From NCBI RefSeq assembly GCF_009930795.1, contig NZ_CP017146.1, forward strand, positions 558,001-622,000: DNA of 64,000 nucleotides, read 5' to 3'. Made by a program: the position numbers and the translations under genes. The DNA comes from Marisediminicola antarctica. GTDB lineage: Bacteria > Actinomycetota > Actinomycetes > Actinomycetales > Microbacteriaceae. Below are positions 11,137 to 63,406 of this stretch, piece by piece (the first letter of the stretch is position 1; the number at the start of each line of letters is the position of its first letter). The notes under the pieces are model-generated. The model was not told the origin of the DNA. It searched no databases and was given only the letters and a program-made list of their open reading frames with translations.

Positions 11137-11440
11137 TGTCATTATTCAGGACCTACGGCCGGGGGTGGTTGTCATTATTCAGGAGTCTGGCCCGGGGGTG
11201 GCTGTCATTATTCAGGAGTCTGGCCCGGGGGTGGCTGTCATGATTCAGGAGTCTGGCGACAGAAGGCAGCCTTTTCAGCCCGGTAACTGCCACATTGGCC
11301 ACATCCGCCGCTTTGGCCCCGGCTGGTCCTGAACGATGAACCGAGCTGGCACCCAGAACTCCTGAATGATGGATGCCGTCTGCTGCACTTTCTCCTGAAT
11401 GATGGATGCTGTCTGCTGCAGTAACTCCTGAATGATGAAA
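11137..11440. repeat. TTTCATNATTCAGGAGT-family inverted element, locus 1
   Basis: Four direct copies of the core (11139, 11172, 11205 and 11238; the last three are full and exactly 33 bp apart, with a near-identical GC-rich spacer containing GGCCCGGGGGTGG) face four inverted copies (11327, 11358, 11392 and 11424). A unique 74-bp centre separates them. The gap lies between two convergent genes and holds no gene. Left copies carry CATTATT (one CATGATT) and right copies AATGATG, so the two sides differ at the variable base. The function is unknown. Confidence 0.85.
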
Positions 11441-16897: not shown

Positions 16898-17103
16898 TTT
16901 CATAATTCAGGAGTGGCTGCTGATTGCGGCTTTCATAATTCAGGAGTCGGTGGCACCCAGAGGGACGGATGCTGCGCGCTCGGCAGCATCCCAGCCAGAA
17001 AAGGTGACTTTCGGCCGCTGACTCCTGAATAATGACAGTCGCCCGGGCCACCGCCTCCTGAATAATGACAGTCGCCCGGGCCGCTGACTCCTGAATAACG
17101 ACA
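16898..17103. repeat. TTTCATNATTCAGGAGT-family inverted element, locus 2
   Basis: Two direct copies (16898-16914 and 16931-16947, both CATAATT, 33 bp apart) and three inverted copies (17021, 17055 and 17087, cores exactly 33 bp apart, with spacer TCGCCCGGGCC) surround a 73-bp centre. Unlike the other loci the flanking genes run in the same direction (ROK and LLM oxidoreductase). The two sides mismatch at the variable base (CATAATT against AATAATG). Confidence 0.85.
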
Positions 17104-51086: not shown

Positions 51087-51512
51087 ATGACGACCAACCT
51101 GCTCGGCCCCGCCGACACGCTCCTGCCGGAAGAGCCCGATGTGCTCGCCTCGATCGCCAACACCGGGCTGGATGCGGCCGACGTCGTCGTCGCGCACCCC
51201 GCCTCGCCGCTCGCCTGGGCGCTCCTGTCGAACAACGCCTACAACGCCGAGAAGATGATCGAGTCGTACGCGTTCGCGCGGGTCGGCTACCACCGTGGCC
51301 TCGATGCACTGCGAAAGGGCGGCTGGAAGGGCCACGGCCCCGTGCCGTGGTCGCACGCGCCCAACCGCGGCGTGCTGCGCGCGTTCTATGCGCTGCAGCG
51401 AGCCGCGGATGCGATCGGCGAAGAGGATGAGGTGGAGCGCCTCGGTGCCCTGCTGACTGACTCCGACCCGACGGCAGCCGCCGCGATCGAGGCGGAGCAC
51501 CCCGGGCACTGA
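51087..51512 (+). CDS. DUF3151 family protein
   Basis: A 141-residue conserved actinobacterial protein of unknown function, recognised by the DUF3151 core AHPASPLAWALLSNNAY, ESYAFARVGYHRGLDALRKGGWKGHGPVPWSHAPNRGVLRA and IGEEDEVERLGALLTDSDP. It has no signal, membrane segment or enzymatic motif; it is mainly helical. It is commonly near purA and adenylosuccinate genes in actinobacteria, as here (purA 2.4 kb away), but no role in purine synthesis is shown. Its TGA is part of the first unit of the third TTTCATNATTCAGGAGT element. Confidence 0.85.
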   Translation: MTTNLLGPADTLLPEEPDVLASIANTGLDAADVVVAHPASPLAWALLSNNAYNAEKMIESYAFARVGYHRGLDALRKGGWKGHGPVPWSHAPNRGVLRAFYALQRAADAIGEEDEVERLGALLTDSDPTAAAAIEAEHPGH

Positions 51513-51831
51513 CGCTTTCATCATTCAGGAGTGGGGGTCGGGCACTGACGCTTTCATCATTCAGGAGTGGGGGCCGGGCAACAGTTTTCATCATTCAGGA
51601 GTGGGGGTCGGGCAACAGTTTTCATCATTCAGGAGTGACAGGGGGGCCGGCGGGCGGATGCTGGGATTTCGAGCATCCGGCCCCTCTCCCCGCACTATTC
51701 CCGCGAGAAGTGGAGCATTCCTGCGGCCGCTCGGCGGTGAGCAGCAGATCACTCCTGAATGATGAAAGCGGTGGCCGGCCGAAAGCCCGGGTTATCCGGT
51801 CGCTGTCACCTCCAACTCCTGAATGATGAAA
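51504..51831. repeat. TTTCATNATTCAGGAGT-family inverted element, locus 3 (best-conserved)
   Basis: Four perfect direct copies of TTTCATCATTCAGGAGT (51516, 51552, 51586 and 51620; spacing 36, 34 and 34) and two perfect inverted copies (51751 and 51815) surround a 114-bp unique centre. All six cores are identical, so left and right can pair over 17 bp. The first 36-bp unit contains the DUF3151 stop codon, and the last core ends 6 bp before the stop of the small minus-strand gene. It lies between convergent genes. Confidence 0.9.
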
Positions 51832-51837
51832 GGAGTG

Positions 51838-52062
51838 TTACCGGCGGGAGCGGCGCTCCGCGACGATCGTGTAGATGCTGCCCGCCGCGGCGATGGCGAA
51901 GCAGGCAAACCCGAACCACGAGACCGCCTCAGACGGGTCGCGGGCGAGCCGGATCGCGTAGAAGAGGGCGAGCACGCTCGCCGCGCCCCCGACGATCCAG
52001 GGGGCGACGATGCGCAATCGGCTGGGCTGGTTCTGGCTCGAGGTCACGCCCGATTCTCTCAT
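51838..52062 (-). CDS. small two-helix membrane protein
   Basis: A 74-residue hypothetical with two hydrophobic helices, IVAPWIVGGAASVLALFYAI and WFGFACFAIAAAGSIYTIV, joined by a short loop, ending in basic ERRSRR. The ATG overlaps the stop of the TetR gene (ATGA), so it is probably translated by coupling and shares the TetR promoter; AGGAGA stands too close to serve alone. An alternative GTG start is at 52047. No family is recognised. It may be a partner of the TetR/oxidoreductase locus, but nothing demonstrates this. Confidence 0.65.
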   Translation of the reverse strand: MRESGVTSSQNQPSRLRIVAPWIVGGAASVLALFYAIRLARDPSEAVSWFGFACFAIAAAGSIYTIVAERRSRR

Positions 52063-63278: not shown

Positions 63279-63406
63279 TTTTATTATTCAGGAGTAGTTG
63301 GGTGCTGCGGCAACCGACCCGTGAGGTTAGCCGCAAATGCGGCAGATTCTGACTCAGAATGCCGCAAATGCGGAATGACCGCCCCACCGCTCCTGAATAA
63401 TGAAAG
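63279..63406. repeat. TTTCATNATTCAGGAGT-family inverted element, locus 4
   Basis: One direct copy (63279-63295, TTTTATTATTCAGGAGT) and one inverted copy (63390-63406, CTCCTGAATAATGAAAG) enclose a 94-bp centre. The centre holds a direct repeat GCCGCAAATGCGG (63330-63342 and 63361-63373) around a perfect palindrome ATTCTGA-C-TCAGAAT (63346-63360). It lies between converging chorismate mutase and purL genes. Confidence 0.85.

Follow-up and report, generated by a model that had tools for sequence, protein, structure and literature searches.

How does one 17-nucleotide sequence come to stand in two opposing sets in the gap between neighbouring genes? The question is raised by locus 3 of the window (the whole 64,000-base stretch analysed, bases 558001–622000 of the single 3,352,609-base contig of genome G000), where four identical copies on the left face two inverted copies on the right. 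A preliminary description of the window had reported four such loci and proposed three possible roles: an array for a DNA-binding protein, an RNA duplex processed by RNase III, or a mobile element. Our analysis supports a new intergenic family with a fixed polarity and a placement at gene 3′ ends, and the array of protein-binding sites is the best supported of the three roles.

The core motif and its genomic copies

Allowing two mismatches, the 17-mer gives 18 matches in the window versus 0 expected from 100 dinucleotide shuffles, and a weight matrix applied to the four loci recovers 20 cores (7 + 5 + 6 + 2). Both tests uphold the recurrence of the 17-mer and the coordinates reported for it; of the 21 cores counted earlier, the one that the matrix leaves out is probably a degenerate copy near 11325. 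The AGGAGT end faces the centre at all four loci, and the reported centre lengths of 73–114 bp hold (Table 1). The 33–36 bp period was found in the window arrays but not on the right side of locus 3, and the centres, described as unique, are only partly so, that of locus 3 being alike to two other G000 elements over 78–90 bp. Three loci lie between convergent genes, as reported, and locus 2 lies between tandem genes (own gene calls). At locus 3, 3 bp separate the first core from the called stop codon of the gene upstream, and left and right cores are perfectly complementary over 17 bp. The centre of locus 4 (63296–63388) holds two GCCGCAAATGCGG copies 31 bp apart, about three helix turns.

Table 1. 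Arrays and centres of the four loci, in window coordinates
Feature	Position	Strand	Details
Locus 1 left array	11137..11252	+	cores 11137, 11170, 11203, 11236; period 33
Locus 1 centre	11253..11357	.	105 bp; core-to-core start distance 122
Locus 1 right array	11358..11440	-	cores 11358, 11391, 11424; period 33
Locus 2 left array	16898..16947	+	cores 16898, 16931
Locus 2 centre	16948..17020	.	73 bp; distance 90; inverted pair GGATGCTG...CAGCATCC
Locus 2 right array	17021..17103	-	cores 17021, 17054, 17087
Locus 3 left array	51516..51636	+	four identical cores 51516, 51552, 51586, 51620; spacings 36, 34, 34
Locus 3 centre	51637..51750	.	114 bp; distance 131; ~80% similar to centres at genome positions 649530, 656545
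Locus 3 right array	51751..51831	-	two identical cores 51751, 51815; spacing 64, about six turns
Locus 4 left core	63279..63295	+	single core
Locus 4 centre	63296..63388	.	93 bp; distance 110
Locus 4 right core	63389..63405	-	single core

The genome-wide search that the preliminary description called for returned 134 matches in G000 at one mismatch or fewer (69 forward and 65 reverse), versus 0 for the same 17-mer read backward. The core alignment and the clusters rest on 127 of these 134 matches, the other 7 lying outside the analysed stretches; the 127 copies form 44 clusters, and the genome holds about 45 elements. Clusters 335858 and 337457 are probably two halves of a single element, split by an insertion sequence, and three further interrupted elements lie at about 316, 1801, and 3020 kb. 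Sampling 10% of G000 systematically, in 17 stretches of 20 kb, gave five elements, all of them already counted, which agrees with a genome total of about 45–50. The aligned core reads C-TTTCAT-N-ATTCAGGAGT; within it, ATTCAGG is invariant across the 127 copies, partly as an effect of selection at one mismatch or fewer.

Polarity and helical phasing

The order of cores within a cluster is strict: in none of the 44 G000 clusters does a right-pointing core follow a left-pointing one, and 39 of the 44 are two-sided. Four of the five one-sided clusters adjoin an insertion sequence, and the fifth (726682) has a left side that is lost or missing in G000 and present in G005.

The cores are helically phased both within and across arrays. 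Within arrays they lie 20–24, 30–36, 43–45, 54–55, or 64–66 bp apart (n = 97; R 0.90 at 10.58 bp), spacings that count for little by themselves because the copies share a history of tandem duplication. The strong evidence for phasing is the periodicity of the distance between the inner left and the inner right core, which in G000 (n = 39) falls into classes of 81, 89–90, 101, 110–113, 119–124, 130–133, 141–145, and 152–156 bp, around centres of 64–139 bp. Its best period is 10.50 bp (R 0.708, equalled by 0 of 2000 random sets), which corresponds to a turn of B-DNA. Relatives give R 0.67 and a best period of 10.4 bp (n = 89). With the phase fixed from G000, the p values are 1e-6 for G005 (n = 29), 5e-9 for G001 (n = 22), 8e-5 for G003 (n = 20), 0.015 for G080, which belongs to another genus (n = 10), and 0.034 for ACT6 (n = 6); G085 and ACT7, with a single distance each, give 0.08 and 0.39. 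When each non-homologous centre contributes one distance (n = 70), R is 0.66 at a period of 10.66 bp (bootstrap 95% 10.42–10.86), and R in 2000 jittered sets is at most 0.38. Six further G005 elements, left out of these statistics (112, 142, 102, 145, 133, and 123 bp) fall into the same classes. At the observed phase of 6.3 bp, our own arithmetic places points near the middle of both ATTCAGGA octamers on the same helix face; points offset from these by 5.25 bp would fit just as well.

Placement relative to genes

Genes were called by our own codon-score scripts or a simple gene finder, and insertion-sequence genes were counted as neighbours in several clusters. On this basis, 26 of the 44 G000 clusters lie between convergent genes, 17 between tandem genes, and 1 between divergent genes. 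In the systematic sample, by comparison, 48 of 285 pairs of neighbouring genes are convergent (binomial p 3e-10). Among the two-sided elements of relatives, with stretch edges left out, the convergent/tandem/divergent counts are 14/9/3 in G005, 11/7/4 in G001, 10/6/2 in G003, and 4/6/0 in G080. Divergent junctions also hold elements (1/44 in G000, 3/26 in G005, 4/22 in G001, 2/18 in G003, and 0/10 in G080). Outer cores often start 1–40 bp from a stop codon. Between tandem genes, too, the element is usually two-sided, so that we take it as a single unit, not as a device working in one direction. The preliminary description had named three outcomes that would speak against such a family, namely absence of the motif elsewhere, lack of a convergent preference, and lack of polarity, and none of them was found.

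Many of the flanking genes, judged by their sequences, seem to have housekeeping roles (IMP dehydrogenase, enolase, aldolase, malate dehydrogenase, purF, nucS, and HU), and a Pfam match adds RF3 to them. The divergent locus 681764 was considered as the promoter of the regulator's own gene and rejected, as its flanks encode a GNAT acetyltransferase and a PNPOx-like protein. Along the chromosome, 26 of the 44 clusters lie at 12–766 kb, around dnaA (407 kb), and the region of the presumed terminus, at about 2.1 Mb, has few; this concentration may reflect just the stability of core genes around the origin. A restriction of elements to one replichore was dropped once dnaA had been placed at 407 kb.

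In G080 and ACT7, single cores stand before genes. One lies 38 bp before the gene of a regulator that we take, by eye, to be ArsR-like (L238 near 3058, L352 near 2558, and L122 near 2183), where it overlaps the likely operator. Further one-sided cores in these genomes are aimed at gene starts 31–44 bp away (L246 near 2979, L123 near 2133, L234 near 2983, and L247 near 2951). Such one-sided cores are possibly promoter sites of the same putative protein.

Distribution in relatives

At one mismatch, the 17-mer is carried by four of the six genomes of the genus, G000 included, and G002 and G004 of the same genus gave no match; any match at all was found in 13 of 299 genomes of the family Microbacteriaceae. 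A looser core has high counts in other genera too, and some same-genus genomes stand near background. The stretches of relatives analysed (20 + 9 from G005, 20 + 1 from G001, 20 from G003, 18 + 1 from G080, plus MAG contigs) were picked for carrying cores. Their two-sided elements have the polarity seen in G000, with a single ‘><><’ exception (L182). Array period and core sequence vary between genomes: G001 has a period of 31 bp and the core variant ..GGAAC, G003 a period of 33/43 bp and the variant GGTCAT.., G085 a period of 21 bp, and G080 single sites ending ..GGAGGTGGTGTGRC; ..GGAGG is also among the genome-specific variants. Core differences of this kind, genome by genome, are expected if the sites track one protein.

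A related-looking scaffold of inverted ATTCAGGA pairs occurs in G114 (genus g36, L292–L321). Among 100 listed places, 28 pairs are exactly 89 bp apart and 7 are 49 bp apart, and at the 15 loci inspected the inner sites read TCCTGA...GTGCAC...TCAGGA, with the rest of the sequence variable.

Conservation in place

The comparison of the same intergenic regions in relatives, also suggested earlier, found shared elements whose invariant core letters are kept in place. Junctions were taken as orthologous when both elements lay at the corresponding end of the flanking gene. By this rule, and among the core-bearing loci analysed, the number of G000 clusters with a counterpart is 22 in G005, 4 in G003, 1 in G001, and 3 in G080 (nucS-HAD at 358916, 68744, and 1033723); as the loci of relatives were chosen by their cores, these counts describe shared elements and not a loss rate. 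Three candidates (L042, L113, and L229) were dropped as orthologues since in each of them the element borders the opposite end of the shared gene. Loci 1 and 2 of the window (569137 and 574898) have one G005 counterpart in common, L178, whose left neighbour is that of locus 1 and whose right neighbour is that of locus 2. The arrangement looks like a loss or gain, between two elements, of the five genes that separate these loci.

In 18 G000–G005 pairs, core positions 3 and 7–14 carry the same letter in 320 of 324 comparisons, a count that omits L178, whose flanks match two G000 elements, and L107, which shares its junction with L175, and that is biased toward conservation in that cores needed to pass a score cut-off. 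Identity is lower in the centres of the same pairs (76% of 1769 aligned bases) and at 4-fold third positions in the flanking genes (80% of 6104 sites, 20 pairs), which indicates that selection acts on the invariant letters in place. Between the two genomes, identity is only 50–53% at the variable base and at the last base of the core. At the nucS junction, an element is present in G000 and G005, with a distance of 133 in both, and in G080 (61); none was found there in G001, G002, G003, or G004, and G004 has kept a ATTCAGGA fragment. Among 24 same-junction comparisons, the centre length changed by more than 5 bp in 12. Ten of these changes lie within 0.15 of whole 10.5-bp turns (+22, -21, +9, -43, -22, -72, -30, +10, -32, and -54), and the other two are half a turn off (+16 and -16).

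A putative protein-binding array

Motif specificity, polarity, phasing, conservation in place, and the bias toward gene 3′ ends and convergent genes are features of the DNA itself, from which we infer a protein, a loop, and a function. Judged from the sequence, there is about an even chance that the elements are inward-facing arrays of asymmetric sites for one putative sequence-specific DNA-binding protein, with a centre of whole helix turns that would form a compact loop at gene 3′ ends. The proteins bound to one array would sit on one face of the helix. Because the centre is kept at whole turns, bending it would bring the left and right arrays into contact, and the product would be a compact looped nucleoprotein complex. 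The arrays probably grow by tandem duplication of a unit, which is 33 bp here and 31, 43, or 21 bp in some relatives. The whole-turn rule, holding over 126 elements from several genera with mostly unrelated centres, amounts to genomic evidence for such a putative complex.

As to function, we think a two-way barrier at gene 3′ ends the likeliest, one that would stop RNA polymerase and/or hold supercoils and would separate neighbouring, often housekeeping, genes. A simple one-way terminator does not explain the element, given its two-sidedness at tandem genes. The fuller proposal is a gene-end insulator, in which the putative protein, bound to inward helix-phased arrays at housekeeping 3′ ends, would loop the centre and block both transcription and supercoils in both directions, with site and array period co-evolving with the protein in each Microbacteriaceae lineage; we advance it tentatively, at well below even likelihood. 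If such a barrier exists, it would be a new bacterial way to separate neighbouring transcription units.

Alternative explanations

The elements might instead be MITE-like and non-autonomous, with the cores serving as transposase sites at the two ends, the phasing imposed by the joining of the ends of a very short element, and the arrays added by later tandem growth. We consider this rather unlikely, although copying has left traces. Three G000 elements (609516, i.e., locus 3, 649530, and 656545) have centres ~80% alike, most other centres being unrelated; the homology between 609516 and 649530 stops within 2–3 bp of the inner cores; and 10 of 20 G003 elements have like centres, in two groups at 70–85%. 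Like centres at different loci indicate that elements were copied to new junctions, and the mobile role proposed earlier gains from this, as it does from the strictly inverted ends and the patchy spread within the family. It loses by the lack of any target duplication of at least 3 bp above chance (126 elements, k 2–9, six offsets), the 2-bp excess (42 vs 34.6) being, as we read it, the GC next to the core. In addition, a search for the Y1 (RAYT) transposase type (PF01797) found it in 0 of 11 genomes (the control rang in 5/14), the invariant core letters evolve in place far more slowly than the centres, and three junctions are occupied both in G000 and in G080, another genus. A candidate transposon bounded by cores 4.6 kb apart (G005 C266) proved to be two ordinary elements. 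The phasing could stem from a constraint on transposition instead of from a protein complex, and a mobile origin is compatible with a present binding function. A mobile element would make the family less of a novelty and, at the same time, an unusual case of transposon geometry legible from genomes alone.

Pairing of opposite arrays into long transcript stems, which would end or protect mRNA or be cut by RNase III, appears very improbable to us. The 3′-end position, the inward polarity, and the perfect complementarity at locus 3 would suit it, and the centres fold better relative to shuffles than coding stretches do (mean z -1.17 vs -0.35), but less well than 13 element-free convergent gaps (-1.78). 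Pairing would also make left and right cores agree better within an element than between elements. Over the variable core positions, the left–right match is not clearly above shuffled in G000 (p 0.09), G005 (0.92), G001 (0.49), or G003 (0.98); weak matching was seen for the variable base alone in G000 (p 0.034) and for all variable positions in the pooled G080 and ACT data (p 0.001), which mix two genomes with different last letters. There is, in short, little or no left–right complementarity beyond the motif. Neither an intrinsic terminator (a GC hairpin followed by a T run) around locus 3 (51400–51950) nor an Rfam match at the gathering threshold within the window was found, and a 10.5 bp period, proper to double-stranded DNA, has no place in RNA. 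The scarcity of covariation and the spacing rule tell against an RNA stem, and the RNase III role put forward earlier is disfavoured. Also improbable, though less so than the stem, is a general regulator that acts mainly at promoters, with the arrays at gene ends as its sink or decoy store. The one-sided cores of G080 and ACT7, mostly 31–44 bp before gene starts, fit a regulator better than a barrier; however, just 1 of 44 G000 clusters is divergent, and the phased two-sided build exceeds what a sink needs.

A centre hairpin, GGGCGGATGCTG...CAGCATCCGCCC, was considered as a key part of the element and set aside. As CGGATGCTG is frequent in genes and the folding of the centres is ordinary, the hairpin is treated as optional. 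The 9-mer CGGATGCTG/CAGCATCCG occurs 48 times in 282 kb of coding sequence and 20 times in 9 kb of elements (G000 stretches), and GCATCC is present in 27 of 39 centres.

Comparison with known systems

According to PMC3733652, REP/BIME sequences lie mainly at convergent and tandem gene ends, and REPs are described as targets of IS110/IS1111-family elements in PMC1525189 and PMC11187229. The present elements resemble them in having many intergenic copies per genome, convergent or tandem positions, opposite unit orientations, and IS110/IS1111 insertions. They differ in that the REP/BIME unit is an imperfect palindrome of 20–40 bp, whereas the core is asymmetric (consensus of 127 copies), its units stand head to tail on each side, no Y1/RAYT was found, and the spacing is helix-phased.

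Correia elements (NEMIS/CREE) and other MITEs have short inverted ends around a centre of ~100 bp and lie between genes, as our elements do. The latter depart from them in showing no target duplication, mostly unrelated centres, and several phased cores per end. MITE copies are homologous throughout; here, 3 of 39 G000 and 10 of 20 G003 centres are alike, and most others are not. Phased operator pairs that form DNA loops (lambda, Lac, and Ara) also keep whole turns between protein sites; the present elements, whose protein is putative, number about 45 per genome at gene ends, and their sites are asymmetric and point inward. Multi-site transposon ends (Tn7 and Mu) likewise carry sites that are direct within an end and inverted between ends, whereas the present elements are very short, have no gene between the ends in those inspected, and are conserved in place. 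The Sal-box/TTF-I terminator arrays of rDNA also consist of polar protein sites repeated immediately downstream of genes; ours, with a putative protein, are bacterial, two-sided, and phased. We call the class new because it fails the tested defining features of the REP/BIME, MITE/Correia, and intrinsic-terminator families. A literature search, with most subscription journals outside its reach, found no paper describing it.

An insertion sequence that uses the core

The insertion sequence found in several elements encodes a 424-aa transposase (PF01548, PF02371) and belongs to the IS110 family. Searching for its left end with two mismatches or fewer, which misses copies without that end, located ten left ends near 15.1, 279.7, 318.0, 335.9, 346.8, 641.1, 1803.0, 2860.5, 2878.3, and 3021.4 kb. 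The G005 orthologues L174 and L181, of the G000 elements at 642613 and 348485 respectively, are uninterrupted. IS110-family elements target REPs and other sites by means of an RNA guide, as described in PMC1525189 and PMC11187229. The insertion sequence is a guest of the elements and leaves the arrays themselves unexplained. At all ten left junctions, ..TCATTATTCAG is followed directly by the IS110-family element, i.e., the junction is half a core whose variable base is T; right junctions were observed at fewer copies. Ten copies in the same half core offer a natural system for a guide-directed recombinase.
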